Of a stretch of DNA of 64,000 nucleotides, positions 18,105 to 63,964 are shown piece after piece. The notes below the pieces were generated by a model that saw only the letters and a program-made list of their open reading frames with translations, was not told where the DNA came from and did no database searches. How positions within the stretch are numbered: the stretch's first letter is position 1; each line of letters begins with the position of its first letter. The position numbers and the translations under genes were made by a program. The stretch is from contig NC_088296.1 in the NCBI RefSeq assembly GCF_032854445.1, positions 8,902,706 to 8,966,705 of the forward strand, read 5' to 3'. The DNA is from Liolophura sinensis (taxonomy: Eukaryota > Mollusca > Polyplacophora > Chitonida > Chitonidae).

Positions 18105-18462
18105 TGAAAGGTATTGGTGTGGACAATAGGGAGTGGTGTGGACAATAGTTGTTGGTGTGGGCAACGAGCGGTGGTGGTGTGGGCAGTGAGCGGTGGCTTG
18201 GACAATAACGGATGGTTTGGACAATAAGCAGTGGCTTGGACAATAAGCGATGGTGTGAACAATAGGTGATGGTGTGGACAATAAGAGGTGGTGTGAACAA
18301 TAGGTGATGGTGTGGACAGTAGGCGGTGGTGTGGACAATAGGCGATGGTGTGAACAATATACGATCGTGTGAACAAAAGGCGGTAGGCGGTGGTGTGGAC
18401 AATAGGCGGTGGTGTGGACAATAAGCGGTGGCTTGAACAATTAACGGTGGTGTGGACAATAT
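18105..18462. repeat. 19-bp minisatellite, about 19 units
   Basis: Units near gcggtggtgtggacaatag repeat every 19 bases with frequent substitutions. Since 19 is not a multiple of three, three units give a 57-base cycle, and all three minus-strand frames read as His/Pro/Tyr-rich repeats. None looks like a real protein. Confidence 0.9.
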
Positions 18463-33663: not shown

Positions 33664-34730
33664 ATTCCGCTTAACCAAGCCCGCAGACTGAGTAAGGGAA
33701 CATTTTGTTTGACACAAGGTTAAGGCAGCCCTCACAATCCATCCATCCAGCCATCAATCCAGCCAGCCATCCATCCAGTCATCCGGCCATTCATCCACCC
33801 AGCCAGCTATTAATTCATCCAGCCATCAATCCAGCCAGCTATCCATCCAGCCATCCGACCATTCATCCACCCAGTCAGCCAGCTATTAATCCATCCAGCC
33901 ATCAATCCAGCCAGCTATCCATCCAGCCATCCGACCACTCATCCACCCAGTCAGCCAGCTATTAATCCATTCAGCCACCAATCCAGCCAGCTATCCATCC
34001 AGCCATCCGGCCATTCATCCACCCAGCCAGCCAGCCAGCTATTAATCCACCCAGCCAGCCAGCCAGCTATTAATCCATCTAGCCATCAATCCAGCAAGCC
34101 ATCCACTCAGCTATCCATCCAGCCATCCAGCCGACCAGCCATCCATCAATCCAAACAGGGTTGCTAGGTGATTTTCCATGCATAATCATATGCGTTAAGT
34201 TCTAGAACTCTACAAGAGGCCTACATGGTTAGATAGTTCGCTGGAATTTCAACAAAGGGTTTTCTGTTCAGCTATAACGGCATGTGAACCGTTAGGGCGA
34301 AACCCGCTTTATTGTAGATGGATATGTATATACTCTCCAGACACTAGAGTGAATGAGACCACTGGCATACTGTACCTTGCCAACAGACCGTATTCCCTCC
34401 CAGGCCCCAACTGAACGAGGGCAAGCAGGGGTATGGGCGGGTGAGGTTGGGAGGGAGAGAGGGGAAATGGACCGGTAAAATGCAACTTAAAGTGTGTGGA
34501 GGCATTCAACAGGCGTCAGGTGTATGAAAAAAGTTTCTTGTTTGCTAGACTCCGAATTGAGCCATTCGCTGTAGATATACAGAAGATATTGTCAAGGATA
34601 ATAGGTTGCTTTCGGGGGCGTTTTGCTGAATGGCCTTGAATACGCTGCAAAATGAAATGGACTGTTGATTTCCACTGTTCTGTGAAACGAATGAAAAGTT
34701 AGTGTAAAAAGTTTTTCATGCATTTCCAAG
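33664..34730. repeat. left copy of a near-identical 1-kb segment next to a gap
   Basis: Begins attccgcttaaccaagcccg and ends ttcatgcatttccaag exactly at the N run. The same sequence, with small indels and substitutions, forms 34931-35877. It includes the CCATCCAGCCAT minisatellite and a unique part with two AT-rich and one C-rich block. Confidence 0.95.
33738..34155. repeat. ATCC/CAGC minisatellite, left copy
   Basis: Built from atccatccagccatcaatcc, agccagctattaatccat and related words in tandem. It yields Ser/His/Pro-rich open frames without biological support. Confidence 0.92.
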
Positions 34731-34930
34731 NNNNNNNNNNNNNNNNNNNNNNNNNNNNNNNNNNNNNNNNNNNNNNNNNNNNNNNNNNNNNNNNNNNNNN
34801 NNNNNNNNNNNNNNNNNNNNNNNNNNNNNNNNNNNNNNNNNNNNNNNNNNNNNNNNNNNNNNNNNNNNNNNNNNNNNNNNNNNNNNNNNNNNNNNNNNNN
34901 NNNNNNNNNNNNNNNNNNNNNNNNNNNNNN
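34731..34930. other. assembly gap, 200 N
   Basis: Exactly 200 undetermined bases, a typical placeholder for a gap of unknown size. Frames crossing it are meaningless. Confidence 0.99.
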
Positions 34931-35877
34931 ATTCCGCTTAACCAAGCCCGCAGACTGAGTAAGGGAACATTTTGTTTGACACAAGGTTAAGGCCAGCTAT
35001 CCATCCAGCCGTCCGGCCATTCATCCACCCCAGCCAGCTATTAATCCATTCAGCCATCAATCCAGCCAGCTATTCATCCAGCCATCCGACCACTCATCCA
35101 CCCAGTCAGCCAGCTATTAATCCATTCAGCCATCAATCCAGCCAGCTATCCATCCAGCCATCCGGCCATTCATCCATCCATCCATCCAGCCAGCCAGCTA
35201 TTAATCCATCCAGCCATCAATCCAGCAAGCCATCCACCCAGCTATCCATCCAGCCATCCATTCAGCCTTCCAGCCCGACCAGCCACCCCATCAATCCAAA
35301 CAGGGTTGCTTGGTGATTTTTCCATGCATAATCATATGCGTTAAGTTCTAGAACTCAACAAGAGGCCTACATGGTTAGATAGTTCGCTGGAATTTCAACA
35401 AAGGGTTTTCTGTTCAGCTATAACGGCATGTGAACCGTTAGGCGAAACCCGCTTTATTGTAGATGTATATGTATATACTCCCCCAGACACTAGGGTGATT
35501 GAGACCACTGGCATACTGTACCTTGCCAACAGACCGTATTCCCTCCCAGGCCCCAACTGAACTAGGGCAAGCAGGGGTATGAGCGGGTGAGGTTGGGAGG
35601 GAGAGAGGGGAAATGGACCGGTAAAATGCAACTTAAAGTGTGTGGAGGCATTTCAACAGGCGTCAGGTGTATGAAAAAAGTTTCTTGTTTGCTAGACTCC
35701 GAATTGAGCCATTCGCTATAGATTTACCAGAGATATTGTCAAGGATAATAGGTTGCTTTCTGGGCGTTTTGCTGAATGGCCCTTGAATACGCTGCAAAAT
35801 GAAATGGGACTGTTGATTTCCACTGTTCTGTGAAACGAATGAAAAGTTAGTGTAAAAGTTTTTCATGCATTTCCAAG
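34931..35877. repeat. right copy of the near-identical 1-kb segment
   Basis: Starts at the first base after the gap with attccgcttaaccaagcccg and runs to ttcatgcatttccaag at 35877, then continues into unique sequence. Its minisatellite is shorter than in the left copy, and scattered one-base indels separate the two. Confidence 0.95.
34993..35300. repeat. ATCC/CAGC minisatellite, right copy
   Basis: Same array type as 33738-34155 with fewer units. Confidence 0.92.
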
Positions 35878-41189: not shown

Positions 41190-41870
41190 CAACCGTCCAT
41201 CGTCTATCAACCTGCCTGATTAGCCACTAAATTATCCAGCCAATACCTAATTAGCCATTGAATTATCCAACCACTACCTAATTAATCACTGAATCATTCA
41301 ACCACTAATTAATTAGCCCTTGAATCATCCAACCACTACCTAATTAGCCACTGAATCACCCAACTACCTTATTAAACACTGAATCATCCAACTACCTAAT
41401 AAGCCACTGAATCATTCAACCACAAATTAATTAGCCACTGAATCATCCAGTCACTACCTAATTAACCACTGAATCATCCAACTACCTAATTAGCCACGGA
41501 GTCATCCAACTACCTAATAAGCCACTGAATCATACAACCACTAATTAATTTGCCATTGAATCATCCAACGACTACCTAATTAACCACTGAATCATCCAAC
41601 TACCTTATTAGCCACTGAATCATATAACCACTAATTAATTTGCCATTGAATCATCCAACCACTACCTATTTAGCCACTGAATCATCCAACGACTACCTAA
41701 TACGCCACTAAATCATTCAACCACTAATTAATTTGTCATCGAATCATCCAAGGACTAATAATTACCATTGAATCATCCAACGACTACCTAATTAACCACT
41801 GAATCATCCAACCACTACCTAGTCAACCACTAAATCATCCAACAACTACAACTTAGCCTCTCTCGTTGAG
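41190..41870. repeat. about 30-bp minisatellite, more than 20 units
   Basis: Words such as ccactgaatcatccaactac, ctaattagccattgaatcat and caaccactacctaatta alternate with unit lengths of roughly 27-32 bases. Two or three unit types are interspersed rather than one uniform period. Confidence 0.9.
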
Positions 41871-45562: not shown

Positions 45563-45991
45563 AAACTTTTGATATAACGTCGTATGGAATCATCTGACAA
45601 GTCCAAGAAAGTCCGGTTGTCGTCTAGTAACATCCTCACTTACAGAAGAGATGAACGCGGAGTAATACAATGGGACTGCTTTCAAGCGCCAGATTCAGCA
45701 AAGCAGACGACAGGCGACTTCGACGAACCGGATGGAGACGCCGCAAGCGTGTTCACGACACAACAGTCAGTTCCTACTGGCCAGAATGACAGCTGCAGAC
45801 GTTCTGTTAAATCACTGAATAATTTCTACCCGGGGACCGGAAATTTGTACCAGTTTCAAGATCGCACTCTGCTGACAGGAAGTGTGGAAACAAATCACCC
45901 ACTACTGCAAGGGTGTGGGATGACAGGAGATTTCCCGCCATGTGCAGCCACAGGAAGTTCTGCTTCACCCCTTAACGACTCTGAAGTGAAG
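45563..45991 (+). CDS. exon 1 of modelled gene (start codon)
   Basis: The acceptor tttttcctctttcag precedes base 45563. The ATG at 45584 follows an in-frame TAA at 45575-45577, so translation cannot start upstream within this exon. The 136 codons end with ...NDSEVK at a gtaaac donor, phase 0. The start of the protein is rich in Ser and charged residues (MESSDKSKKVRLSSSNIL). Confidence 0.8.
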
Positions 45992-46604
45992 GTAAACAAA
46001 CGTTGTGACATTTACCACGTGTCTGTTCACAAGCACCGGATATGAAAATCAATAATCTGGCAAAACAAACAAAATCATGTCTGGCTTACACCGTGATAAT
46101 ATCTTCAGTTAACAGGTAAAGAATTAGCCTTGCATACCATGTTCTTGTTTGGTGGATACGAAAAAAAAACAATCCATTATCAGCTAAAAAAAAAACGTGC
46201 ATGAATCATGTTTTTTTTATGTCAGTCTTGCAGTGAAACAAGTGACTTGATATGCATTTTCTTTTGCACCTGGGATAGGCTCACACAATACTTATAGAGC
46301 TATAAGTATATCCTTGTGCTTATTCCTTTCTCCCACAATTTAAAAAAAAAAAATTATCTTCCGGCTCTGGAATTGCGCCTGAAGTGTAAATTTATTCATA
46401 TGAGTAAACATTCGTTAAAGACATGCACTAACTAAGCACATGAATAATCAAAAGTCAAAACAGCAGTGCAGTAGTGAAAAAAATAATACCCATTTACGCG
46501 GATCTAAGTACAGGATCTTTGTTTTGCTTAAAAAGGGTATTTCCTCACTGGTTTAATGATTTATTATATATTTATGTATTTCATGTATTTCATGTATGTA
46601 TGTT

Positions 46605-46636
<32 letters not shown>

Positions 46637-49600
46637 TGTATGTATGTATGTATGTATGTATGTATGTATGTATGTATGTATGTATGTATGTATGTATGTA
46701 TGTATGTATGTATGATGTGTGTAATTATTTAGTCTTCAATCACAGATTTGTGGGAATGCAGGGAACATGTCCGTTAAGTTCTTATCTATTGTATGTGTTT
46801 ATTTATGTATTTATTTTGCACTCTCAGGTTTGTGTGAATGCAGAGCGCATGTCTGATGCAACCGGATGCTTCCCCTCGCATTACTCGCCGTTAACTCCAC
46901 CGGCGACTCCAAAGAAAAGTCACAGAGTTCTGCGGCAAGGTGAAGGTCAAGGAACTTGTCAAGTTCAAGGTTTTTCATGCCACAAGCCCCAAACACCAAG
47001 AGATGGATCAAAGTTTTCGTTTCCGGTAAGTGTTATTTTTATTCTGTTTATATTTGGCAGGAAAGAAGGGCTTCCGTTTAATTATTTATTTTTTTTTTTT
47101 TGTTGGCCTGAAAACCGGTGATCATGCACGTTTCACTTCTCCTACAGCTGTCTGATAAATGAGTGGGGGAAACAGAGATTACTTTGCTAATTGCATGATG
47201 TGTAGATTATTTCCTTTGGTGATTGATCCGCTGGGTTGATGGCAAGTTTGAGCTCGAATACGTAGAGACGACCCAAAATGCATGCGCAGTGGATCATTTA
47301 GGGAATTTTGTTAAGGGGAAGATGAGGGGAGGAGGTGGGGAGGAGAAATGGTGCTCAGACTTCAGGTGACTTTTATAACAGTTCGATTTCTTTTTGCATC
47401 CTTACTATACCTAACGTAATTACGTTTTTTTTTTTGGTATAGTATTCATGACTGTTTTAAAACAGACCTTATATATGCGCTTCGGTGGCAATTATTTATT
47501 TATATTTGCTTGGTGTTTTACGCCTTACTAAAAATATTTCAAATACACGACGGCTGTCAGCATTATGATGGGAGAAACCGGGCAGAGCCCGGGAGAAACC
47601 CATTAGCATTTACACGCTGATGGAAGTCCATCCCAAGTACGGGCGAGGAGGAAGCCAACATGAGCATGAGCTCACAGCGACCGAAATGGTGGTAAGCTCC
47701 TGGGTATTGCTCCGAATTGTCGTCCTAACCCACAACGCCACGCACCCCCCAACCCCGCCACGCACCTCATCTCCCGCCCTGGTCCCTCAACTCCTGCCCT
47801 GGTCCCTCCCAGCCTCGTATGGCAGGATGACGGATAATATATGAAGGTTGAATCAGATGGTTATATTTTATGAATCCATCTACACAGTGGGCTACAATGA
47901 AGCCCGGACTGGACCGTGGCCTAGAGATCAGTGAAATAATCAAACAATGAATGTATTTCGCCACCTGGAATAAACTATCAATACTCGAGTAGTACAGGAT
48001 AATTTTTCGTGTGATAAAATCAAGTGTTCCACATCGCCTAGATGACAGTCTGTAAAAAATTCTAAATTTAAAGAAAATGTTAGCTATGTGCATATTTTCT
48101 CTTTATGATGAGAATCCAGAAAATAACACGGCATCTTTCTTAATTCTAAAATTTGGCGTATTTCCCTATGTAGAACATTTTTAATACACCTTTGGGGCCT
48201 AAACTAATTCGGCCGTCTCCTGAGTAATTTGTTGTTGTTTCCTGTTTTTACCATGAACTTACCAAACTGGTTATTTGATAATACAAATGTAATAATGCAA
48301 ATGTAATAATGCAAGTGTATGGTCAAATAACAATTTGACAGTTTAGATGTCATTACGTGGGAAAAAATGTGTCCCATTTCCCTTCTCTGTGAAATTGGGA
48401 GTTTCATAGAACAGACATTTCAGCTTGAAACTGTAACATGTCCGCCTAACCCGGATAGCGCAAAGAAATTTATTTATTTATTTCATCGTGTGTTTTACGC
48501 CGTGCTCAAGAATATTTCACTTATACGACGGCGGCCTGCATTATGGTGGGACAAACCTGATCAAAAATCACTCATGGTGTAAAGTTTTGTTGTATTCTGT
48601 ACCAGTGGGTGTTCCACTCGTATTTGCTTGCAGACGAAATTGGACCACACCTACCTTTTCATGTATATCGTTACCTCTTCAGGTGAACATTAAATAATAC
48701 TTGATTCGAGGGCCTGGTTCATAATTGTGCCAGACAGAGTCCATCGTTTATTGAGAGAAAAACGACGTTGTCAATCATTGGACAATTACGGCGAATACGA
48801 CGGGTCGATATCTTTGTTTGAAATACTGATTCGTGTGTTTCCGGCAAACACACGATGGCATTAAGCCAATTGAAGTGAATGCGATACCTTCGCCGTTTTG
48901 TTCTCCCGCCCTGTAACGTGGTTTCTTGCTCTTGAACTTGTGACAGCTATCAGCTAAATCAACACGTAACTACAAATCGAGGGTATGGGATCAATAAACA
49001 CTGTCAAAAAGACACCGGGCAGAACACGGCACCTCACAAAGCGAGATCCATTTGGGGTGTTTGTAGTATGATATTACTCGTTCAGACGGCCGGCCTTTCC
49101 GATTACACCTTCGTTGAAGGAATCAAGGCAAATCCAACTTGTATCCCATGTGCAAGTACCTATCACAGCTTACGTGGGAAGGTCTGTCAGCAACCTGAGG
49201 ATGGTCGTGAGTTTCCCCCGGTCTCTGCCCGGTTCCCTTCCACCATAATGATGGCCGCCGTCGTATAAGTGAAATATTATTGTGCAACATCAGACAAATA
49301 AATAAATTTCACAGCTTAACCCAGGACTGGAGGCTGTTTTGATATCATCGGTGCATTTATACGAAGAGTGACAATAAATGCGTAACCGAGGTACCTTTGT
49401 ACTTTTTCTTGTTTCATATCATGATGTTTTGCATAGAACAAATACGCACCTTTGCAATGTCTTAACTACGTACTGGATTTGACGCATCGGCCGCTGCACA
49501 CGTATCTCTTTCACGTATCATTGAAAACTAACGACAACCTCTACTACCCTCAGTTAACTACCTTCTCCTACAGTTATACGCACGTGTAAATATTCTTTTC

Positions 49601-52225
49601 ATGTATAGGTACGATTTTATTTATGAAAGGGGTCGTTGGGAATTTGACTTTAGATTTTGTTTCCTCGATTCAGGGACCGAACTTTAATTTGAAAACTTTT
49701 GGACACGCTTTATTTATTTTAACGGTGTTTTTCACCGTACTCAAGAATATTTCATTTATACGACGACCAGTATTATGGCGGAAGGAAACCAGGCAGAACC
49801 CGGGGAAACCCACGACCATCCGCAGGTTGCTGTCAGACCTTCCCACTTACGGCCGGAGAGGAAGCCAGCATGAGCTGGACATGAAGGAGGAATAAGGATG
49901 TGGTTTTGACAATTGCATGCATTTGCTAAACCTTGAACAGAAAAATCCCACTGTGAGGACTTTGGGACTTTGAACGACTATTATATTTTTAGAAAGCTGG
50001 ATAGAAAAGAGGGGAAAAAAGAGAGAAACGTGTAGACAAAAATATTGATACAATGTGGACAGATATTTGCTATTATGGAGGAAAATGTCCTTAAATGATG
50101 CGCCACATTTCCTAACCACCATTCTCCCATGACGACGTGTGTGCAAGGCGAGTTACTTGTACAGAAAAGATCTTCAACAGATCAGGAACAGTTATTTAAT
50201 ACATGTGTGAGCTTTACAACAGCACTGCTTAAATAAATTGTTCACGTTCACACTGGTTATAAGCCCTGGGTAATTCTGTATCCACGTTTTATTCGTTCAA
50301 GGATTGTACATCGCACAATTTACCCATTAAATAAGGCACTGTTACCAGGGGCCAGTTGCTAATACGAGACGTTGAACAAAGAAAGGTCCACTGAAATCCA
50401 ATTGGCCGTCAACTCTTATGTCTGCCTGCGCTATTATACCGGGCGCTGATCTCTATTTATCAATTACCAGTCATTCTTTGATGTAGGCCGTTTGGGGCAG
50501 ACAAGGCACTCGTGTAAGACTCAGAAATACACCGCATTCGATGAGATACTTCATCCGTGTCTTCAAAACACAATGGATCTGTCCTTATAGATGATAGTCA
50601 GCTGCTCAAAATTTATTCCTTTTATACGGAGAAAAAAAAGGAAGAAAGAACTATTGTTTAGCACTTAATAGAGGTAGGCCCCTTGAAGAATTAAATGTAA
50701 ATAATTAGTAAAAAAAATGGGGTCATTTCGCTCCAAAATCTTTAACGTTCAAGAAAATGACCTCGGCCAAAAAATTAAATTATTTCTTAAAACAGTTGTG
50801 TTCCTTTAACAAAGAAGTTAACGGGACTTATGTGGTTTTCATAAGATACAGAGCAAGGACATACCTGATCCGGAAAACACCCTATGAATACCCCAGACGT
50901 AACTTAACACCTTAATTTTGCAAACAAGCCCGGGTTAAGAGTATCTCCTTTCCGTACACCGTTATTCGATTATACAGTGTGTTCAGTCTACCAGCATGAG
51001 ACTGTCATCAGGAACTATTTGTCATGTGATAAATCATTACGGTATCTTTTTGTCCGCTGTTTTGTCCGCGGGACTACGTGCTGGGGGGATGGAGTAAAGG
51101 CCATTTAGTACTAAAACGTCTCCGAATATATAAGCGTAGGTTTATGAAGTTTCGTCTGTAGTCGCTGTGAGCATTTATAACCAAACCCGTCCCGCCACAC
51201 GCCCTCCAACCTCCTTCCCTGTTTGCTGGTCAAAGGTTTTGTTTATAAAGAGTTCCATCAGCTGGGAAGCCTGTAATTACTGTCAACTTCTTAAAATCCT
51301 ATTTCAGTCATCCCGGTATCAAAGAAATATTCAATCATTGCCGAACGACCAAAGTAGAAATTCACATTAAATAACATCGCAGGAGGTAATGACCTCGAAA
51401 TATTCGACAGTGCTTTTAATAAAAAATCCGGGATAAAGACTAAACTGGAACGTATACATGTTGAGTAATGTGAACCCCAAAAAATAAATAAATAATAGAT
51501 AAATTAATGTGGCACGTGGCGTGTAACTGTTGAAGTCAAGCAGGATGTTACTAGGCTGTTTTGTCACTTAAAGCTCGTACAGACATATAGTGTCGAACAT
51601 CACCTAAAAGTCTGCTGCCATCACACGAAATCCCTTTTTTAATTTTACACTTTTTATGCATTAGAGAGATTTTCACCTAATTCTGCTCAGGCATGCTGAA
51701 CATATTGTTACTACATGTACTTAGTAGTACGTTACGTTTTTACATGAACAATCAGAACAAACCCGTAAGTGAGGTAAACTGAAAAGAGCCTATATTTCAC
51801 AGGTTGCGCGTGCGCAAATATGCCAGCTATTACACCGTCGTCACTGCCCTGGCTTTACTCTTTATACTGTACGTCTTAATACTATCCCATAAGGCTATCA
51901 TAGGCTAATATGATCATTAACATGGTTACAGATGCTGTGACAGACATACATTTACGTTGTATGGCGTCCGCCTTCAAGTTGTTAGACATGAGATCAAACC
52001 CGGGTGGTCAATTGATTAGCGCGCTATCGCAGCGTAATGACCCAGGAGCCTCTCACCAATGCCGTCGCTGTGAGTTCAAGTCCAGCTCATGCTAGATTCC
52101 TCTCCGGTCGTACGTGGGAAAGTCTTCCAGCAACCTGCGGATGATCGTGGGTTTCCACCCACCATAATGCTGGCCGCCGTCGTATAAGGGAAATATTCTT
52201 GAGTAAGGCGTAAAACACCAATTAA

Positions 52226-52273
<48 letters not shown>

Positions 52274-55200
52274 ACCCGGGTGGGATGATACCATTATCAC
52301 GTAAGACATTAAAACTGGTACTACTCTCAACACTGAGAGGCCAGAGCAATGAAACGGGACTGGTTTACCCGGTATCGGTATAATGTCACTGTTTGGGGTG
52401 TCATGTCTAGTGTGTTAGCATGATACTTCAATGATACTGACAGCAGCACTTTTAACTGGCATGGATTTCACCCAGCCTCAAGAAAACACAGCATACTGAC
52501 AGACACCTAATCACTCACATGAGTGAAATATTGTTTAGAACTATAAGAGAACCCAGTTAAGAATACACATATACATACACTGGAGACTACTTCTCTCTCA
52601 CATCTTACCGTATTTACATACTTCCTTATTTTATTATGTCTTACATGTTTCTTTTAGGGGTCTTATAGGTTATTCGGAAATGGATCTTTTCGATTATGGG
52701 CTAAGTTGGAACGCCGCTGCATGTCCTACGAATGGCAGATACGTATGAGGGACATCAAATTTAGATCAGCTCAGTTTATATATTTATTTGATTGGCGTTT
52801 TACGCCGTACTCAAGAATATTTCACTTATACGACGGCGGCCATTATTATGGTGGGAGGAAACCTGGCAGAGCCCAGGGGAAGCTCACGACCATTCGAAGG
52901 TAGCTTAGGCCACAAATGGAGTCCAATATTTCAGTGCGCATGTCGCTAAACAAATCCCACACCAACAAAAAACCTTTTAAAACTCTTTATAAGTAAATGT
53001 GCTGTTACTTTCTTCAGAGAGACGTTAAAGGCACCAGTGAGACCAACTATGCGGATATATTCACATCTACCGTTATATCTTCCCTGAGATTTTTGTGCGG
53101 TCCACCTGTACCACGTACAGTGACCTTGGAATTCCAAAATTCTAAAAGGAAATGTATTGAGAACCAAGCTCATGGTCGTCTTTAGTCTGATTACTCTAAA
53201 TCGCCAAATAATTGCCTCAATTTCTCCGCTGCTTTACCATTGATGTGCTAATCGGGTGGTCACGGCAAAAGGGTCGGTTGCCTATTAACCCCCTATTATA
53301 CAGAGAAAGGGCCCTTTATCCGGGTTCCATGCCCCGCTTTCCCTTTTTTTAGTTAGGTGTACCCCAGGGTTGAGCCCACTCAATTGAGGGGGCAAGATTA
53401 GCCTATGGCCTTCAACCTAAGAGATCAGCACCAGTGAATTGAAAGGCTACAAAGAATCCAGTTTCAAACGCGAACTTTCACACGGGCGTTTAAAAAGGTC
53501 CACTCCCTGGATTCCCCTTGACCGAATTCGCCATAAATCAGTTGATACATGTATAACCAGCGATTCCACGGGCCTTTTTCTAAAAAAATAACATATTTAG
53601 ATAATGTTCCGTGGCGTCGTTTGTTAACTGTGAACGATGTGGCCGTTATCCTGAATGGTAGTTTTATTTAGAGCCTCATAAATACATAAGTACACTGTGA
53701 AAAAAAATGAAATCAAAACGCACTAATATCAAAACTCTCCATGCAAACAGCACTGGCGAGATTGTCAGAGTCATATGCCTTTGCACTACACTTGAGCGTC
53801 TATACAATACTATAGTTTGTTTAAAATGTTTTTTTTTTTTGCTAGACCGTTATCAAACAAATCAAAAAGTCCACATCATGAAAGATGAAAGAAAACTAAA
53901 TGTACCAAGATTAAAAACTCGCTAAGTGTTTAAACCATGCAGGCTTTGGTTGAATTCCGCTACAGTGAGCTATACTTGCGTTGTAATGGCGCTATGTTAT
54001 TTAAAGCATGCAATCTTTCGTTAAATTCTGCTACAGTCAGCTATATTTACGTTGTAATGGAGCACTTTCCCAAACTATGTATTGTTTAGAGTGTTTTTTT
54101 TATTGCTTTGGCTTATGTTTAACGCTATATGTTTTAGATTATTCCATTTTTTGTGAGCGGAAGAATACAATCTGAACGTCAAGACAACCATTCTTATACC
54201 AATCACATTTCAAACTCGTACATGTATTCAGTGATTTATACCGTTCGCAGATCGAATACAGATATACTTATCGGGCTTTGTTTGCAACTTTTCATAAAAG
54301 CACCATGCATGTTTGATGCAATAAACTCTAATGCTAATAACATGTTATCTCATATGTAGCACTGGCTTTTGAACTATATTTATCTTATGTAACATATTCG
54401 AGCCCGGTTTCCTCCAACCATATTGCTGGAAACCGTCGTATGAGTACGGCGTAAATATACCAATAAAACAACTCACATATATTTAACCACAGAATAATCA
54501 CTGTTCATGTCACGTGACTGGAAGACGTCATTTCTTTTTCTCCACTTGAATACAATGAATATGGAAAGGGTGAAAATTTTGAACTACGTCATTCGCCGTT
54601 AAGTTAAATGGCGAAGAAAATTTATTTATTTACTGATTTCATTGAAGTTTTACGCCGTACTCAAGAATGTTTGACTTATACGATAGTGACCAGCATTATG
54701 AAGGGAAGAAACATGGGAAAGCAATGGGGAAACGTACGACTATCCGGAGGTTGCTGACATACCTTCCCACGTACGACCGGAGAGAAAGCTAGCTGGACTT
54801 GAACTAACCTGAAATTGTAGATGCGTTTCGTTTTTATTGTGAAGTTTTATTGTAGAGTTTTTTACCTGGTCATTTTTGCATTTAGTAAGAAGATGAGATA
54901 TTACTTGTTCACGAGGGAACAATATTGACGATTTATTTAAGCGCTTAACCCTCCCCTCTCCCCAAATAATGCATTACCTATCTGACGTCATTATTTGCTC
55001 GGGGAACGATTTCTAACAATCAAGCTAATTATTTATTGTCTTTACGAATGATTTTTTGTGATTTACGTCACATGTTACTCTCTTCCTCTTACAGGACAGC
55101 GTCGCCTCTGCACAGAAATGGTCATGCCCGCCCTCACCGAGGACTATCAACTCGCCGGAACTAGCCGCTGAAGCCGCTGTCTCGGGTCAGCGGAAAGAAA

Positions 55201-58200
55201 ACGTCAGTCTTATCTCCCCTTGTCCGCCAGGAGCAGGCTACACGCCGAAGTCCCCGGTTGTTTTGTTCCAGTTTGACAGCAATGTGGATGAAACGATACT
55301 CAAGAGAATCATCAAGAAATTTAACGACGGTAAAATATCTTCTAAATTTTTTAATATACCAGCGTATATGGATAAGACTACATAGGACCCACACATTGTG
55401 TTTAAGTCAGGCAGTATTAGGAATATGTAACATTAGTAGCGAGCCGCTACAGACATAAACCCGTTTTATGAATTATTTTATTAGTTTATTACTTTTTTAA
55501 CTTATGTATTTGCTCGTTGGTTAACGACATACTAAAGCATTTTAAATTATACGATTGCTATTAGTTTTATTCGCGGAAGGAAACTGAATACCAGGCGTAA
55601 TCCACCGACCTTTGGCAAGTTACTGACCTTCTTTTCCACTTATGATGCACACATATGCAACCTATGTTGTATATTTCTCTTTTAATTTGAAACAGAAGCA
55701 TATACCGAAATAGTGTCTGAAGCGACGCAAAACCCTAAGCACATGGCGAAACTTACTGACGTATAAACAATAGAGACCTCACTAAGGCGTGAAACACCGG
55801 TTAATGAGTCAATATTAAATACACCAGTTTGTCTGACAATCTGTTTTATCACGTGCACATTAGTATTAATGATTATTTCCTGATGAAAACTAAAATGGCG
55901 GAAGCTTTTCAACGTGTAGGGTTAAAACAAGTCGCAATCGATTAGTCGGGCGTAACCATAGAAACACTAGTGCATCGGTATGCTGAATCGATTCAAGAAT
56001 CTGCTTACCTGAAAAGGTATGGAGCAGCCGCCTGTTCACACAGGTAGAATCCTTATTAAAGCGTGTGACAGGACATTCCTGTACCTGCAAAACTAACGAC
56101 GTTTGATTCGTACATATAGCTCTCTGCTTCGTACAAATGACTATCGTTATATTACAAGACTAGTGTTTGCTGAACACCGCACAGGTAGGTAGGTTTGTCT
56201 GTTCATTAATATTTGCACCTGCAGAATGCATTATTCAGCGGCAGCGGGCCAAAAACAGAGGAATTATCCTTGGCTATACCGGAACGCGAAGGAGTAGACA
56301 AACGCGTACACATACGCATGGGCTCTCATGTGGAAATTGATTCAACCTGAATACATCCTGAAACAGGCTCTCTCCACTGCATTGGCAGACAGGTTAAAAC
56401 GTCTGCCTTTAAATCAGGAGACGTGGATTACATCACATTAGACTGACGGCATAAAATTACAATATTGCTACTTTCTTAATTAGCGCTTAACTTCAGGCTA
56501 TATGACAAGTATATCCTGGTTTTAGAGGTCTGGGGATACCGGGACCTGTTTGGCTTAATGCCTCCTGCCAAGATGTGCAACTTATACAATGCCTTAATGG
56601 TGCCTTCGTGGCTCAGTTGGTTAGCACACTAGCGTAGCGTAATGATCCAAGAGCCTCTCACCAATGCAGTCGCTGTGAGTTCAAGTCCAGCTCATGCGAG
56701 CTTCCCCTTCGGCTGTACGTTGGAATGTCTACGAGCAATCTGCGAATGGTCGAAGGCTGTACCCGGTTTCCTCCCACCATAATGTTGGCCGCCGTCATAT
56801 AAGTGAAATATTCTTTAGTACGGTGTAAAACACCAATCCACTAAAAATGAAATAAATACAGTACCTTAAACTATGATCAGTACCGGTATATCATAAGGCT
56901 TGCAGTACAGAGAGCAAAACCAGAGCAGTGACGACAGTGTTGTAGTTGGCAAATGGTCACACGTACAGTATATAGCAGGTGAAATACGGCGTCTTTCCAA
57001 TTTACCCTTGATAAGGTTTCATTCTATCTGTAAATGATTTAATGTGGAGAGAACATAACAATTGCATGAAGTTCAAATGAAATATTTCGAAAAATTACTC
57101 ACAAATGTGGTCTTCAATTTTTTTTCGATGAATTCCTCAAGCAAGTCCAGGGACACTTTGCATAGTTTTAATTTGTCTATATATTGTATGTGATGGCAAT
57201 AGACATACGGCATTTTGGGTGGTTCTCATCCAGTCACGTCTAATAATAGTAACTGATATGGATATTCTGCATGCACTGCATCTTATCTTTTCTACCTTAT
57301 TCGTCTTAACTCATAATGATGGGGGTGGGGTGGGGGGTGGGGTGGAGGAGCGTATATACTACTACTGTCCAAGCATCCACATGTTCACATGCACAATTAG
57401 AATAAAACCCAAAGTGAGGTAAATTGACATATGGCCAGATATTACACTGTCGTCGCTGCCAAGGTTTTACTCTCCATGCTGTAGTCAACCAATTTTCCAA
57501 CCGCAAGTCTTTTACAGCTGAAATCTTAGACTGGAATGAACAAAAATACAACTAATTAATAAACAAATGTCGTTGATAGAGCATTTCACTATGCCTCGAC
57601 AATGGCGTTCCCGTGAACCTATTGAAACTCGATCGTGATTAAAGCTAAGCAATGCCAGAATAGTGGATTATTTATAATATGTTGTTGTCAGGAAAATATA
57701 AGGCTTGTAAGTTACTTATCCCTTTGGTTATACGGTGCTTCTCGCATATAAGTCATTACGCTTACACTTTTTAATGGCTGCGGAAGTAAAGCATGTCTCT
57801 TCTTTTAGAAATGTCAGAAAACATGAATACTTTTTGACCTTTTTTTCATTCTTTCTTTTTTTTTTGTAGATGTGGCGAAGGAAGCGGATGAAATAAAACC
57901 TATAACTCTCCAGGATCCACCGAAAATCCAAACAAAAGAAGAAACAAGTCCGATGGAGCGACAATGCAATTGAGGCTAACGAACAAGGGGAGATCACCGC
58001 ACCAGACGTTGCCTGTATGGAAGAGCAAGAGGAACAATCTGCAGAATCCAACCACGAAGGTCATACTGTCCCATTATTAATAGATGGAAGTACGACGGGA
58101 CCACCTTTGCACAATAAGGAGGATTTGATACTCAGACCAGGTGTTGGGTATTCGGAAGAAGTTTCTCTTCAACCGGGATCATGCTACGATGATTATATAG

Positions 58201-61200
58201 AAACGTGGCACAAGCAAAAATCAGTTGGAGCGAGGGGGGTCGATGTCTCTAACGTGTACACGCATCAGAATTCTTCCGATGAGTCTGACGATGGATCTCC
58301 ACCTCAACATCCTCATCTCGACGGAAGGAAATCCCCATCTATAGGAGAGGACGGCTGCTTTCCGTCCACAACATTTGTGGGACCTGCTGCCGTGTCAGCG
58401 GCCTTCAATCGTACCAAAAATGCCCACGTAACTGCAATGATGTTGCTGAGTCAGCAAAATTTCCAGAATCGTCTATTACAAACTGCTGGATTCGCATCGA
58501 AAGTGCACCAGGAGATACACAATCAAGGGAAACACCACAGACAAACGTCACCAGCGTCAAAGACGTCGCCTACTTATCGGGATAGCCAGTCGCATTTCCC
58601 AGACCGTTTGAATCCCCTTCCTGCATCGCCCTCGCTTCGTTTTTCATCAACTGCAATACAATCATCAGTGTCAGATGATTCTCAAGTTCCGTTCTTTCAA
58701 TTTCCACCGCCGTCTCCTTCACCGAAGTCGGCGTTTCTACGTCCGACAGATTCACCGTCGTCACTAAAATCACTGTCATGTTTTCGTTTCCCACCTACCT
58801 CACTATCTGACAGAAAGATCAGCTCGCCGTTTCGAGTTCCACCAAGCTTACCCTCCCACACGGAGCAGCTATCATTTTCTCACCACGAATCATCACCTTT
58901 TACTCGCCACAACAGATCATCGGGCAACGAAGACTCCCGAAGTTATACTTCGGCTCACGAATCGTCAGTTATTCCTCCCTGGAATTTCCCTGGACACCGG
59001 GATAACCAGAAATCCAAATTCCCACGAAGCACACTGCCACCCAAAGAGAATCCTTGGCGATTTCCAATATCACAGAATGTAAGTATATGCTATGATCCCA
59101 CGCGACGAAGGTTGTTCAGTCAAAACCAGACCCATCATTATGTTTGGCATAAACTACATTCTCAGCTGAGATATGCCCTTTCCTTTATCGGGATATCCTG
59201 TGACACGCAGGATTAGGTCAGTGGTGTAAACAAAGCAAGTTTCTTTTATATTCTTTTGATGTGCACTCGACCATTCATATTCCCTGAATATCTATCGTTT
59301 GTGAAAAAAATCTAAGGAAATAGCTAGTATTCATATTCTTTTGCAGTCTCTCCAATTGAAACTCCTGTAAGTGCAGCTATTGTTTTCTTTTTTTGTTTCA
59401 GCCACAGCAGTCGTCAATCGAACCAAGGGAGACAACTTTGCTCAACACAAATTCGAGTCCAGGGGAAGCAAGAAGGCGTCTCTTTTGCTCAACACCCGGG
59501 TTATCTTCTCGATCAGGTATTTGATAAACTAAGATAAAACAGATGAAAATGTCTGCGTCAAAGTTCTGAAATTACCTAAATAATTCGATACTTCGTGTCA
59601 AGTCGTGCTCAAATTTCCACTGACATAAGGAGAGGCAAGGTGAGTTTGTGGACATAAAAAATATGGAGTGTATGTAGTCTTTCATAGTTTAGTTTAGCTT
59701 CGACATGTGTAGCATGTTTCGATCAGTGGAATGCCAGGGCGAAGCACATGATGAGACCATTCAGAGAAGACGTGCTATGGGATTTCTTTGAATGACCGAG
59801 TTAAGACTAACCTGTAGGTTGGTGGAACTGGCTGCAAAGAAGAGATGGTCTGTAGCGAAATGGAAAAGAACCGTCAATATGTCAAAAAAAAAAAAACGCC
59901 TAGGGCAATTCCAGCGTTTACATATTAGAGACATATATCATATGTGAATCATTTTTCTTTTTCATGCAGAGTCTGATGTTGACGACGCCCTGACGTGCAC
60001 CATTCTCAACTATCTGGTCAAAAAGAACATTCTCACCCCGGAAGATTCAGCGCGCCTGCGCCAAAACGCAAGGGGAAGTAATCAGACATTTCCGGATTTA
60101 GGGCGCACATGTAGCACGCCTACGAAGTACGATCAAAGGCAGTATTCGGGCACAAACAACCACGTTGCGTCCGAACAGGACATGCAGGCTATTGAAGACG
60201 AGCGCATCCGAATCCTGCGGCAAAGAGGACACTCGGTGGGAGAAATTGAGGACACTTTACTTGCGAGATCTGTTGATCTTTTGCGCTCTCCCTGCTTTCA
60301 ACGCAGTCACAGCTTGCCGGTGCCGCCATCACCTAAGAAGGGGTTAGTGCAGGGTAGAGACGCATGCAGAAAGAGGCGAAGAGGTGAGGCTACAGGCTTT
60401 TAAATGACCAGCCCTCCATAGATGTACAAAGTGTAGACATAATGTCATTATGAGATTCTTGAAAACATTACCTAAAACATAAGTTTAAAGAAATATTTTT
60501 CCCCCGTAGATCCGGATCTCAGAGGCACGTTGTTATTGTGTTTAAACATTAAAAGTAAAAGGGGTTCTACAAATAATTTAGGTTTCTCTTTCAGATATTT
60601 TTTTATTTCTAATGCTGGGGTATTCCTTTTGCATTAATATTAGGAGCATCGATTGTCTTACGTTCGCACCTACTGAGATGAAATTGTATTCAAGCGCATT
60701 GTTTTCGAACGTTGTATTTTTAAAGCAACAATTGCTTCCACTTTGTCACACAACTTAAAAACTAAAATTCTATTTGATTGACACTTTCTTCTTTATATAA
60801 TCAATTTTTTTTATCTTACATCTTCTTTAACAGGTAACATCGATATTCGGGTCGAATGTGAAGAAGTTACGCAACATAAACGTCAACTAGCAGAGGATAT
60901 GACCAGTCTGGAACAGCCAAGAGGAAGTCCGTCTTGCTTCTGCGCCGAAGTGGAGGATCAGATTCTTCAAATGACACGTGAAGCCTACACAAACATCCGT
61001 CGCCATGACGACACACCGGAAGCCTTTGAACGGTTCGAAAACGAGGTTCAGCAAACGAATATTAATATCACGGATGCACTGTGTATTCTGAGGACTTTGA
61101 AACAACTGTGTAGTCATGGTAGAACGATCGAACAGATTTACCCCGGAAGTATTGTGTTTAGAATAAACTGTCCATCAAAGAGTGCTTTATTAGAACTGTG

Positions 61201-63964
61201 GAGATGGTACCAAACCGGAGAACTACTTGATCTCTTGCAGCAAGGTCTAGTCACAGATGGTGTTTTGTTGGCCTTCAGTGCTGAAGAAATTCGACTGAAT
61301 GTCACCATTGAGAACTCGGATTTCCAGAACTGCTTGGAGGAACTCGGTATGGTACTTCTTTCAATTATTTGGGGAATTAGTTGCAAACCTAAAGAAAACT
61401 TGCCATTCTGTCTTACTATTTTTAATAAATCTAGAAATGTCTGTAGATGTACTAGAAGCTGGGACAAAAACACTAATGGGGCCTCCTGGCTCAGTGGTTT
61501 AGCGTGCTGGCGAAGCGTAATGACCCAAGAACCTCTCATCAATGCGGTCGCCGTGAGTTCAAGTCCAGCTCATGCTGGCTTCCTCTCCAGCCATAAGTGG
61601 GAAGGTCTGCCAGCAACCTGCGAAAGGTCGTGTGTTTGCCCCGGACTCTGCCCGGTTTCCTCTCACCATAATGCCGTCTTATAAGTGAAATATTCTTGAG
61701 TTCGGCGTAAAACACCAATGAAATAAATGAAACAAATCAATGAAAAACATTAAAGAAGCATAGCATACAATTTGTGGTATCCTATATATCTTAAGTTCAC
61801 CTCAAGATGACATACTTTTTGCGGGATTTTACAACCATTAAGAAGTTTTGGGCTTATTTTAGCATGTATTGTTCTTATGGAAAACAGTTTTAAAGCGAAG
61901 GATTTCTTTGATGATAATTTTGATTAAAAAAAGTTTTTAAGTTTTTTAGTTTTGTTGGTTTCAGAGTTTGTAGAAGGCGTGGACTTTTCAGAACCATCCC
62001 AAAACAAGGTAGGTTTTAGTATCTAATGCACATACAAAGGTCGGCTTCAACGATATAAAACATATCATTCTCCAACATAAAGTAGTAGCGGTTGTGCTTG
62101 TGAACTACCCCTTTGCTTAGTTAACGAAATTGTCCAGAAACAGGAAATAAACTTGAACATAGTACGTGGACCAACGTGATTGGACCAGCGCGATTGGACC
62201 GACGTGATTGGACCGACGCCATTGGGCCAGCGTAATTGGACCAGCGTGATTGGACCAGCTTGGTCCAATCCCCCGTAATCTGAACATGGCTATAATTGTT
62301 ACAGTGATCTCTTATTTCCTCTATTATGGACATGCGCATATCATGTATCTTTTGAAATGGAGATCACTACAAATATTCCTTATATACTCTTATAAGACGT
62401 AATATCACATATTACCACCAATCCCATTATGGCGGACATAAAAATATTCGACGGAGAGTTTTGTTTAGAGAAAAGCATCAAACGTTGGAACATGCAAGAA
62501 ATAGTGTGAATACATGTTTTTGATATTCTTGTATGACGCTTGGATAAAATGATAATCTATCCGAGCCTGTATACATTTTCCAACTGAAAGGGCTGCATAA
62601 ACACATCTATGGGTGGCAGAGATTTTATATCATTTATTTGTTTCATTGGTGTTTTACGCCCTACTCGAGAATATTTCACTTATACGACGGCGGCCAGTAT
62701 TATTGTGGGAGGAGACCGGGCAGAGCTCTGGGGAAACCCACGACCATCTGCATGTTGCTGGAAGACCTTCCCACGCACGGCTTGAGAGGAAGCCAGCATG
62801 AACTGAGATTTGAAATACAACTTTTCTTACCAGGGAAATGAATTTACTCCTCATAATGTGTACTTATTTACTTTAGTCTACCTCAAGACATTTCATATAT
62901 TGCAGGGATATGGTTTATTTCTAGCAGTTAGGCAATGTCAAGTGGAATCCATTACCACCTTGCAAGATCGACCTAATCAGAAGAATATCCTCTCTTTATT
63001 TTAGATGGTGATGGAGCAGAACAATGAAAATGCACCCAAACCCGGACACCTGACACCAAAGAAGAGTCGGTGCCAAAACCCCGAAGAGAACTACACGCCA
63101 CGCGATCTCAGACGCTCTAACGACCTCCAAGACATCCCCAGTGCTGCATCGCCAGTGTCCCAAACCCCAATGTCTCCCATACGCATCGCACTACAGGACT
63201 GGGAGCTAAGTAGTCCTGCTTCTCGACCAATTCCAAACCTGCCCAGGTATCAGCCAAGAGTTCCACGGCCACTGACGTCATCGTCATCCAAGCCTATGGT
63301 CGATGTGAACGTCGTCAGAGAGCATACTTCTGAATTCCTCGTCCTCAGGGAACCGTACCATTCACTTTCTCCAAGCCGGAAAGCTTTCCAAGAGTTGTAA
63401 GTTAATTTTATTTATTTATTTGATTGGTATTTTACGCCGTACTCGAGAATATTCCACTTATGCAACGGCGACCAACATTATGGTGGGAGGAGACCGGGTA
63501 GAGCCCGGGCGAAACACACGACCGTCCGTGTAGGTTAATTAGACCATTACGGATACCTCCATGGCCAAGCAGTTAGCTTGCGAGCACAGCACAATGACTA
63601 CGAAGCCTCTCTCCAATGTGATCAGTGTGCGCTTCCTCTTGTGTCTCTGGTTGTTTGAGATGGTGATATCTATATTATTGATCGTGGGGTGGATGTTTGA
63701 CTTGCGCATGCCGTAGCGGTTTGTGACCGTATATTGGTGATTTTGTTCTTGCCTCTCTTACCTACTAATTTTTTTGGCACCGTTTGCAGCATATACCGCT
63801 TCACAAACTATGAATTTGACTATTTTAAGAATATGTTTTATAATCTTCTCAAAAATAATACATCGTCCCTTACACTTGTTTAAATTCTTTTATTCTGATT
63901 AAATACTGATTAAGCCTGATAAAATACTTGTTTTTGCATTTTCAGAAATTTTAGCTCACGCTAG
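45584..63964 (+). CDS. Ser/Pro-rich protein with TRADD-like N-terminal fold; ten exons, one frameshift
   Basis: Coding parts: 45584-45991, 46828-47025, 55095-55329, 57870-59078, 59402-59516, 59970-60383, 60834-61346, 61965-62008, 63005-63396, 63946-63964. All introns are GT-AG with pyrimidine-rich acceptors, and phases agree at every junction. The coding sum is 3547 bases, one more than a multiple of three, because of an apparent extra base in exon 4. Without it the product has about 1181 residues. Most of it is Ser/Pro/Thr-rich with many SP and TP pairs, so probably disordered and phosphorylated by proline-directed kinases. Residues about 724-751 look helical (LNYLVKKNILTPEDSARL). Residues about 964-1030 (GSIVFRINC, LLELWRWYQTGELLDLLQQ, EIRLNVTIE) match my memory of TRADD-like N-terminal domains of invertebrate immune and death adaptors. 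That domain call is inference. No death, TIR or RING domain was seen. The overall family is unrecognised. Confidence 0.8.
46608..46714. repeat. (ATGT)n microsatellite in intron 1
   Basis: About 26 uninterrupted ATGT units ending 113 bases before exon 2. The apparent Met-Tyr-Val-Cys reading frame through it is an artefact. Confidence 0.97.
46828..47025 (+). CDS. exon 2 of modelled gene
   Basis: Acceptor ttttgcactctcag, donor gtaagtg. 66 codons, phase 0 at both ends. It carries the SP/TP cluster HYSPLTPPATPKKSHRVL. A long ATGT microsatellite lies about 110 bases upstream of the acceptor. Confidence 0.8.
47493..47720 (-). mobile_element. SINE family A in intron 2
   Basis: Minus-strand copy with ATTTATTTATA tail, gttttacgccttac, acacgacggctgtcagcatt and gggcagagcccgggagaaac, and a head region ctcacagcgaccgaaatggt. 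Antisense to the gene. Confidence 0.82.
47721..48467. other. intron 2 sequence, no other feature
   Basis: Contains a short ATAATGCAAATGTA duplication near 48280-48316. No exon candidate was seen. Confidence 0.5.
48468..48560 (-). mobile_element. SINE family A, 3' fragment in intron 2
   Basis: TTTATTTATTTATTT tail, ttttacgccgtgctcaagaa, tatacgacggcggcctgcat. The copy stops soon after the tail region. Confidence 0.85.
48561..49157. other. intron 2 sequence, no other feature
   Basis: No repeat or exon recognised. Confidence 0.5.
49160..49308 (+). mobile_element. SINE family A, 5' truncated, in intron 2
   Basis: cttacgtgggaaggtctgtc, agcaacctgaggatggtcgt, gccgccgtcgtataagtgaa and an AAAT tail. 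Sense orientation. Confidence 0.87.
49309..49706. other. intron 2 sequence, no other feature
   Basis: No repeat or exon recognised. Confidence 0.5.
49709..49882 (-). mobile_element. SINE family A, headless, in intron 2
   Basis: Tail tttatttatttt, ttcaccgtactcaagaatat, acgaccatccgcaggttgct and ggagaggaagccagcatgag. The head is missing. Confidence 0.87.
49883..51740. other. intron 2 sequence, no other feature
   Basis: AT-rich with short open frames only. No exon with good splice sites or repeat family identified. Confidence 0.5.
51795..51882 (+). repeat. dispersed repeat family C, copy 3
   Basis: gccagctattacaccgtcgt, cactgccctggctttactct and ttatactgtacgtcttaata match the other copies. Upstream words (aacccgtaagtgaggtaaac) are shared with the 57.4-kb copy, so the repeat extends further left. 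Confidence 0.75.
51945..52555 (+). mobile_element. SINE family B, split by a family A insertion
   Basis: The head (gcgtccgccttcaagttgtt, gagatcaaacccgggtgg) is at 51965-52007. The body resumes at 52284 (gatgataccattatc, ggtatcggtataatgtcact, gcatggatttcacccagcct) and ends in a decayed tail near 52540 (atgagtgaaatattg). The inserted SINE occupies 52008-52271. Confidence 0.85.
52008..52271 (+). mobile_element. SINE family A nested in family B, with 12-bp TSD
   Basis: Begins within the tRNA-like head region (tcaattgattagcgcgctat) and ends in a long run of AAAT units. The duplicated target aaacccgggtgg is at 51996-52007 and 52272-52283. Confidence 0.95.
52776..52905 (-). mobile_element. SINE family A, 3' half, in intron 2
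   Basis: tatttatttgattggcgttt, acgccgtactcaagaatatt, cttatacgacggcggccatt and gagcccaggggaagctcacg. Confidence 0.87.
52906..53934. other. intron 2 sequence with one possible cryptic exon
   Basis: After the acceptor-like ctgttactttcttcag a frame in the phase of exon 2 stays open from 53018 to a TAG near 53185. No good donor follows. The rest has no recognisable feature. Confidence 0.3.
53935..54066. repeat. about 66-bp tandem duplication, two units
   Basis: gctacagtgagctatacttg, then cgttgtaatgg, and gctacagtcagctatattta, then cgttgtaatgg, lie about 66 bases apart, flanked by similar catgcaggct and catgcaatct words. Confidence 0.85.
54067..54401. other. intron 2 sequence, no other feature
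   Basis: A 68-codon open frame at 54153 has no domain. Nothing else recognised. Confidence 0.5.
54402..54469 (+). mobile_element. SINE family A, short 3' fragment
   Basis: gcccggtttcctccaaccat, ccgtcgtatgagtacggcgt and an AATAAAA end. About 20 bases of the tail core are deleted. Confidence 0.7.
54618..54806 (-). mobile_element. SINE family A, headless, in intron 2
   Basis: AATTTATTTATTTA tail, gaagttttacgccgtactca, gactatccggaggttgctga and cttcccacgtacgaccggag. Confidence 0.85.
55095..55329 (+). CDS. exon 3 of modelled gene
   Basis: Acceptor ctcttcctcttacag, donor gtaaaat. It reads in phase from exon 2 (DSVASAQKWSCPPSPRT ...) to VVLFQFDSNVDETILKRII and ends with one base of a split codon. 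It follows an 8-kb intron. Clean phase agreement supports the exon although it is short. Confidence 0.8.
55495..55650 (-). mobile_element. SINE family A, strongly decayed, in intron 3
   Basis: acgacatactaaagcatttt, aaattatacgattgctatta, gaaggaaactgaataccag and aatccaccgacctttggcaa follow the family order with many changes. Confidence 0.45.
55651..56595. other. intron 3 sequence, no other feature
   Basis: No exon or repeat recognised. Confidence 0.5.
56600..56855 (+). mobile_element. SINE family A, full length, in intron 3
   Basis: ggtgccttcgtggctcagtt, ggttagcacactagcgtagc, caatgcagtcgctgtgagtt, gccgccgtcatataagtgaa and an A-rich tail. A body segment is shortened. Confidence 0.88.
56908..56982 (-). 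repeat. dispersed repeat family C, copy 4
   Basis: Minus-strand copy: aaccagagcagtgacgacag, tgttgtagttggcaaatggt and cacacgtacagtatatag are the complement of the family core. Confidence 0.75.
56983..57386. other. intron 3 sequence; G/T-rich tract
   Basis: A GGGGTGGGGT-type tract is at 57320-57347. Nothing else recognised. Confidence 0.5.
57387..57486 (+). repeat. dispersed repeat family C, copy 5
   Basis: aataaaacccaaagtgaggt, gccagatattacactgtcgt, cgctgccaaggttttactct. It shares left-hand sequence with copy 3. Confidence 0.72.
57870..59078 (+). CDS. exon 4 of modelled gene, with apparent frameshift
   Basis: The acceptor is very strong (T-run then gtag), the donor is gtaagtat. The frame continued from exon 3 runs to a TGA at 57971-57973. 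The long frame (354 codons from the ATG at 58017 to the donor) is in another register and is open only from about 57906. One extra base between about 57906 and 57971 would explain both. The rest is Ser/Pro-rich with a PPPSPSPKSAF-like stretch and repeated SPF motifs. Confidence 0.75.
59402..59516 (+). CDS. exon 5 of modelled gene
   Basis: Acceptor ttttttgtttcag, donor gtatttg. It reads PQQSSIEPRETTLLNTN...RRRLFCSTPGLSSRS in phase 0 and ends with one split-codon base. Confidence 0.8.
59970..60383 (+). CDS. exon 6 of modelled gene, helical segment
   Basis: Acceptor tttttcatgcag, donor gtgagg. The start (DVDDALTCTILNYLVKKN) and the later RIRILRQRGHSVGEIEDTLL look like short helices. The end is basic (CRKRRR) and could be a nuclear localisation signal. 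Phase 1 at both ends. Confidence 0.82.
60834..61346 (+). CDS. exon 7 of modelled gene, TRADD-like N-terminal fold
   Basis: Acceptor atcttctttaacag, donor gtatgg. It encodes an acidic helical region and then, from about 61145, the alternating strand-helix-strand pattern GSIVFRINC / SALLELWRWYQTGELLDL / EIRLNVTIENSDFQNCLEEL. Conserved-looking positions are the W in the first helix, the G-E-L turn and the hydrophobic alternation of the last strand. The frame runs on by chance into an intronic SINE to 61684, but the donor at 61347 ends the exon. Confidence 0.83.
61477..61742 (+). mobile_element. SINE family A, full length, in intron 7
   Basis: Head gggcctcctggctcagtggt, ggttcctc-type body and an A-rich tail. 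The flanks aaaaacactaa (61466-61476) and aaaaacattaa (61743-61753) form an 11-bp duplication with one mismatch. It sits 130 bases downstream of the exon 7 donor in sense orientation. Confidence 0.92.
61965..62008 (+). CDS. exon 8 of modelled gene (44 bases)
   Basis: Acceptor ttttgttggtttcag, donor gtaggt. It completes the split codon and encodes EFVEGVDFSEPSQNK, ending in phase 0. Being short, it is easy for gene finders to miss; the phases on both sides require it or a substitute. Confidence 0.7.
62167..62262. repeat. 14-bp minisatellite in intron 8
   Basis: Six to seven units of gaccagcgtgattg with substitutions at a few fixed positions. Frames through it are artefacts. Confidence 0.93.
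62263..62629. other. intron 8 sequence, no other feature
   Basis: No repeat or exon recognised. Confidence 0.5.
62630..62807 (-). mobile_element. SINE family A, headless, in intron 8
   Basis: tttatttgtttcattggtgt, tatacgacggcggccagtat, gaccatctgcatgttgctgg and gagaggaagccagcatgaac. Confidence 0.88.
63005..63396 (+). CDS. exon 9 of modelled gene
   Basis: Acceptor ctctttattttag, donor gtaagtt. 130 codons, again Ser/Pro-rich (HLTPKKSRCQ, SPVSQTPMSPIRIALQDWEL), ending with two bases of a split codon. Without splicing the frame would stop at a TAA at 63398-63400. Confidence 0.8.
63408..63530 (-). mobile_element. SINE family A, 3' half, in intron 9
   Basis: tttatttatttatttgattg, ttttacgccgtactcgagaa, ggtgggaggagaccgggtag and acacgaccgtccgtgt. 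It starts only about 12 bases after the exon 9 donor. Confidence 0.85.
63553..63632 (+). mobile_element. SINE family A, head only, in intron 9
   Basis: tacctccatggccaagcagt, tagcttgcgagcacagcaca and cctctctccaatgtgatcag are the tRNA-like head in plus orientation. It is adjacent to the minus-strand 3' half at 63408-63530. Confidence 0.65.
63946..63964 (+). CDS. exon 10, stop codon
   Basis: Acceptor tttttgcattttcag. It completes a Leu codon and adds NFSSR before TAG at 63962-63964. The 3' untranslated region and polyadenylation signal are beyond the window. Ending at the exon 9 read-through stop is the alternative. Confidence 0.6.

Follow-up and report, generated by a model that had tools for sequence, protein, structure and literature searches.

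Results

Gene structure and reading frame

A ten-exon gene lies on the + strand between positions 45584 and 63964 of the window, by which we mean the whole 64,000-nucleotide stretch of Liolophura sinensis DNA that was analysed. All of its exon borders are GT-AG. With exon 4 taken as 58084-59078, the joined exons give one frame of 1110 codons, running from the ATG at 45584 to the TAG at 63962-63964 with no internal stop. The coding part of exon 1 (45584-45991; exit phase 0) begins at this ATG in its best frame by held-out codon score, and a good acceptor at 45563, before the ATG, suggests a UTR exon upstream of exon 1. Exon 2 (46828-47025; phase 0/0; with TPPATPKK) and exon 3 (55095-55329; phase 0/1) are SP/TP-rich, while exon 4 holds a large Ser/Pro-rich region in an open run at 57906-59213, and exon 5 (59402-59516; phase 0/1) is Ser-rich. 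Exon 6 (59970-60383; phase 1/1) and exon 7 (60834-61346) carry the recognisable modules described below. They are followed by the short exon 8 (61965-62008; 44 bases; phase 1/0), by exon 9 (63005-63396; phase 0/2), which encodes an SP/TP-rich tail, and by exon 10 (63946-63964; entry phase 2), which supplies the final residues and the stop codon.

The open run over exon 4 comprises 436 codons, against a longest run of 237 (mean 158.5) in 200 simulated first-order Markov windows of 64 kb, and is thus far beyond chance. Based on held-out codon usage, the frame used here was the best of three in all eight exons tested (1-3 and 5-9), with the narrowest margin in exon 8 (0.7 vs 0.4). In exon 4 past 58084 it scored best in two of three segments; at 58401-58700, a stop-containing other frame outscored it (19.1 vs 2.8). 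The ten-exon gene is real, and it is probably working.

Two acceptors compete for the start of exon 4. On a crude scale, the acceptor at 58084 scores 0.2 and that at 57870 scores 9.6, the latter being among the best of the region. The phase of exon 3 also fits 57870, from which the frame continues for 33 codons before a stop at 57971; the phases of the whole gene agree only with 58084. The agreement of phases across ten exons reported in the first-pass annotation is thus borne out in that a single 1110-codon frame with both ends right exists, but it depends on the weak acceptor. The alternative 5' part of the exon (57870-58083) nevertheless looks coding. Its segments 57872-57970 and 57972-58083 both score as coding, in different frames, their codon scores being equalled or exceeded by 53 of 1642 and 11 of 1274 open intronic stretches of the same length, respectively, and the codon score peaks when the frame change is placed at 57959-57971. 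Either exon 4 begins at 58084, or it begins at 57870 and its frame changes within about 57923-57971. In the latter case the change is possibly an assembly error, an allele or a lesion, and a change near 57970 could indicate a damaged gene. A crude scan for cassette exons yielded a single weak candidate for intron 2 (49674-49724) and none in intron 3 that reconciles acceptor 57870 with the long frame. The long frame of the exon 4 region also contains KQVRW, which fits the PP1-docking pattern; we make no claim for this motif because the frame is uncertain where it sits and it is missing if exon 4 starts at 58084.

The TRADD-N domain of exon 7

Residues 88-142 of exon 7 match PF20694 (TRADD-like_N) with an E value of 4.9e-7 and 29.9 bits (cut-off 23.7; 31.5 bits in the genome-wide search), in agreement with the earlier recognition of a TRADD-like segment here. 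The conserved GS at 61145-61150 opens the core of the domain at residue 893 of 1110, which also places it in the last fifth of the protein, as had been noted. This GS aligns with the GS of the DEDD gene of the same genome and with that of a paralogue at C2:25.11 Mb (C2 being the window's contig). In TRADD-N domains a tiny residue followed by Ser (uS) is described for the turn before strand 3 (PMC8195603), and the GS of exon 7 has this form.

Several comparisons relate the domain to DEDD. Exon 7 is 33% identical over 61 residues to a working copy of the human DEDD C-terminal segment that itself scores 55.7 bits with PF20694 (pairwise E 2e-8; none of 1000 shuffles as good). An hhalign comparison of the exon 7 and DEDD profiles, built from only three and two sequences, gave a probability of 94.1 and an E value of 1.2e-7. 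Against the TRADD-N exon of DEDD from its own genome, exon 7 has 13 of 37 residues identical, with 1 of 2000 shuffles as good. The part of exon 7 before the GS is not significantly similar to DEDD (580 of 2000 shuffles as good; with the segment cut smaller, 247 and 54 of 1000), while the corresponding part of the C2:25.11 Mb paralogue is (9 of 2000). This stretch forms a long insert compared with DEDD. It carries the pattern CxC...LQM..AY.NIRR.D....FE.F...QTN at about residues 33-95 of exon 7 (60836-61345), conserved in all three relatives on C2.

No TRADD chain in the PDB was matched up to E 10, either by exon 7 alone or by a three-sequence profile; PF13820 was not listed for exon 7 by Pfam up to E 1, and NCBIfam gave no relevant match. 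Since exon 7 matches DEDD and no TRADD chain, the results support placing its domain, within the TRADD-N superfamily, in the DEDD/DEDD2 branch and not beside TRADD. The resemblance to the TRADD N-terminal domain proposed in the first-pass annotation consequently stands at the level of the superfamily, but the nearest relatives lie in the DEDD branch.

For the RRM-like alpha/beta fold expected of the TRADD-N superfamily, AlphaFold models made without an alignment were too poor to use (pLDDT 44.7 for the whole of exon 7 and 52.8 for its C-terminal 111 residues), and the latter model gave no Foldseek match at E <= 0.001. Among viral contigs, three stretches fitted the exon 7 pattern and none was confirmed; among bacterial and archaeal genomes, none of 144 such stretches was confirmed, and phages gave no match. 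PF20694 was found in none of the search tool's 14 unspecified control genomes.

Relatives in the same genome

The window's own genome (609 Mb) was searched for further copies; the resulting counts are lower bounds, and introns can interrupt the domain. In a six-frame search (6 candidates scored), PF20694 exceeded its cut-off at three places: the window itself, C1:94.2545 Mb and C7:13.911 Mb. At the C1 locus (C1:94254503-94257816), a TRADD-N exon (52.4 bits) lies downstream of a DED exon (52.1 bits) and is identical to the working copy of the human DEDD segment at 77 of 85 residues. Judged by these two domains, the locus is the true DEDD orthologue; it evolves very slowly beside the fast window gene. 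At C7:13910812-13910997, a long open frame encodes a TRADD-N domain that also matches PF20694; its 95.8 bits with PF13820 identify the locus as NCOA6.

Exon 7 itself found three places including its own, all on C2 (6 candidates, all 6 scored). The closest, at C2:25.1103-25.1107 Mb, is 48% identical (E 2.6e-35) and reaches 24.6 bits with PF20694 when scanned directly. Some 10 kb further upstream, and on that strand too, an exon encodes a complete CARD (PF00619, 51.7 bits), the two exons spanning C2:25.110-25.121 Mb. The CARD exon ends in a basic run, and the phases of the CARD and TRADD-N exons are those of window exons 6 and 7. Among PDB chains, a designed protein (E 0.0043) comes closest to this CARD, followed by human CARD8 (E 0.0072). 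Strand, distance, phase and shared order argue for one gene, and the phases and shared order speak against assigning the CARD to a different gene. No other exon of the window gene has a clear match in C2:25.095-25.145 Mb (best E 0.10). Between exon 7 and this paralogue pN is 0.37 and pS, which is saturated, 0.75; the duplication is therefore old and exon 7 has been constrained.

The third place, C2:22.6968-22.6970 Mb, matches exon 7 at 45% identity, with the alignment confined to residues 32-95 (E 2.2e-11). Conservation there covers the first half of the domain and the open frame stops before the GS core, with no further significant exon 7 match in the surrounding 50 kb. This relative could be a relic; alternatively, it could encode a protein that uses that half alone. 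Just upstream of it, within C2:22692958-22697050, are open frames that by eye seem rich in SP.

The intron before strand 1 is in phase 1 in DEDD of this genome, in the window gene and in the C2:25.11 Mb paralogue, and a by-eye alignment on a shared DIR brings the DEDD intron within three residues of that of the window gene. The window gene is thus a further lineage, neither DEDD itself, NCOA6 nor TRADD.

A probable diverged CARD and a basic cluster in exon 6

Pfam gives CARD for exon 6 with an E value of 0.024 and 15.1 bits, below its cut-off of 23.9. A helix 2-3-like part lies at 59978-60064 and a helix 4-6-like part at about 60185-60286; helix 1 was not found, and there is an insertion after helix 3. 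Compared with the paralogue CARD, exon 6 without its basic tail was equalled by 7 of 2000 shuffles. The helix 2-3 part, a segment chosen after the Pfam hint, was equalled by none of 2000, and the helix 4-6 part by 52 of 2000. For exons 1, 2, 3, 4, 7 and 9, between 389 and 1658 of 2000 shuffles were as good. A BLASTP comparison of exon 6 with the CARD of the paralogue was not significant (10.8 bits, E 7.5). At its end, exon 6 encodes the basic run RKRRR (residues 784-788). Because its phase, position and basic ending are those of the paralogue CARD exon, and because the sequences are partly alike, exon 6 quite likely encodes a diverged CARD. The first-pass annotation saw no death domain in the protein; Pfam indeed lists none in the gene pieces, but exon 6 looks like a diverged member of the death fold. 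No DED (PF01335) appeared in the window pieces in Pfam scans up to E 1 or E 0.5.

SP/TP-rich arms

Outside exon 7, the pieces of the protein (968 residues, with exon 4 counted from 57972) contain 33 SP/TP pairs, compared with 19.3 +/- 3.7 in shuffled sequences, none of 2000 of which had as many. The earlier description of the remainder as SP/TP-rich was therefore accurate. The pairs occur in an N-terminal, disordered-looking arm of about 650 residues and in the tail after the TRADD-N domain. Such an excess points to proline-directed kinases. Pfam scans of the gene pieces listed no effector or receptor domain.

Discussion

The gene structure, the TRADD-N homology, the kinship to DEDD and to the CARD-linked paralogous exon, and the enrichment in SP/TP pairs are all directly supported. 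Based on these features, the gene is an atypical relative of an already known protein family and not something new in kind. Like DEDD and DEDD2, it carries the TRADD-N domain within its C-terminal half; ahead of the domain come a basic cluster and, directly preceding strand 1, an intron in phase 1, and a death-fold module lies N-terminal to the domain. It differs from them in that no DED was detected and a CARD-type exon occupies that place, in its SP/TP-rich arm and tail, and in the long insert before the GS; moreover, the same genome keeps a separate DEDD on C1. The paralogue at C2:25.110-25.121 Mb shares the order of a CARD exon with a basic end followed by a TRADD-N exon, in the same phases, but its CARD is complete.

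NCOA6, a large nuclear protein, likewise has one TRADD-N domain, but Pfam models that domain separately, as PF13820. TRADD belongs to the same superfamily by Pfam name and according to PMC8195603, but its own domain is N-terminal and is accompanied by a C-terminal death domain (PMC8195603). A position away from the N-terminus is described as usual in the superfamily (PMC8195603). For Aplysia, PMC9334734 reports that a TRADD orthologue was not identified.

The death-fold partner in the DEDD/DEDD2 branch is usually a DED (PMC8195603), and a CARD version of this branch is a variant worth recording. The main text of PMC8195603 names CARD three times, in general passages, and describes no CARD-TRADD-N protein of this branch; its figures or source tables may list one.

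On balance, we consider it probable that the gene encodes a DEDD-branch TRADD-N protein with a CARD-type module in the place of the DED, acting as a phosphorylation-regulated, DEDD-like nuclear adaptor. The predicted layout would run from the SP/TP-rich arm through the diverged CARD of exon 6, the RKRRR cluster and the TRADD-N domain of exon 7 to the SP/TP-rich tail. TRADD-N domains, in which a Ser in the turn between strands 2 and 3 is conserved, have been proposed to act as switches between the parts on either side of them (PMC8195603). Both cell death and cell-cycle control have been connected with DEDD, which is able to move between the nucleus and the cytosol and interacts with HSC70 and Rb proteins (PMC6599020). 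The switch proposal, the shuttling of DEDD and the SP/TP excess lead us to favour an adaptor set by phosphorylation, the last step being inferred. By analogy with DEDD, the protein would be nuclear or shuttling, with RKRRR as a putative import signal and the TRADD-N domain as a protein-binding switch. Proline-directed kinases of the CDK/MAPK type, acting on the arms, might then set the timing and place of binding. The altered CARD has perhaps lost homotypic assembly and may serve as a docking surface only. Nuclear location, phosphorylation, partners and pathway are thus predictions for this protein. The first-pass suggestion of an uncharacterised, phosphorylation-regulated adaptor is a reasonable one.

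It is rather unlikely that the gene instead encodes an immune-type TRADD-N protein from a marine-invertebrate repertoire, with the long SP/TP-rich arm as its variable part. In the DEDD2 clade of invertebrates the death-fold and TRADD-N parts are constant and the flanks vary (PMC8195603), a pattern that the window gene fits, and exon 7 has related copies on C2 with differing neighbours. However, only three places exceed the PF20694 cut-off, to which the CARD paralogue (24.6 bits) may be added, and these counts, which are lower bounds, show no expansion on the scale of the 14-16 DEDD2-clade copies described for Crassostrea (PMC8195603); the lack of effector or receptor domains in the Pfam scans points the same way.

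A further reading, that of a decaying or broken paralogue with a worn CARD and a frame change in exon 4, has a still smaller chance of being right. If the acceptor is 57870, the 5' part of exon 4 does hold coding-looking stretches in different frames, and the CARD of exon 6 is without helix 1. Against this reading, the frame is open elsewhere in the exons, exon 4 has an acceptor that keeps it, and exon 7 has been constrained. We think it very improbable that two genes have been wrongly joined, an SP/TP-rich one (exons 1-5) and a short CARD/TRADD-N one (exons 6-10). The clear match of exon 7 alone around the C2:25.11 Mb paralogue would suit such a division, but the end of exon 5 and the start of exon 6 agree in phase 1, exon 6 starts mid-codon behind a good acceptor, and the third locus on C2 also has SP-rich-looking frames, by eye, just upstream.

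Beyond the favoured reading of a DEDD-like nuclear adaptor, we hold it possible, though short of probable, that the window gene belongs to a separate CARD-basic cluster-TRADD-N family. Such a family would be sister to DEDD and would have arisen by exchange of a DED exon for a CARD exon ahead of the shared phase-1 boundary, and a single contig would carry three of its members or relics. One of them would have grown phosphorylatable arms while its CARD eroded, becoming a kinase-controlled nuclear scaffold. If this is true, a CARD-for-DED paralogue family beside a true DEDD would show which core is constant, namely the basic cluster and the TRADD-N domain, and would offer an invertebrate system for testing the core of the DEDD layout.

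Repeats around the gene

A tRNA-like SINE of about 240 bases occurs at 61481-61720 and in 19 further pieces, making 20 in the 64 kb, and its head looks A-box- and B-box-like by eye. Several pieces lie in introns of the gene, and the listed exons are free of overlap with any of them. In one genome search, this SINE accounted for about 130 of the 132 matches. Upstream of the gene there are few open frames of at least 110 codons, many of them inside tandem arrays. The large arrays, whose repeat units measure 12-228 bases, are found at 4216-4938, 15728-16555, 18115-18461, 33737-35283 and 41215-41849, and one array adjoins a run of N.
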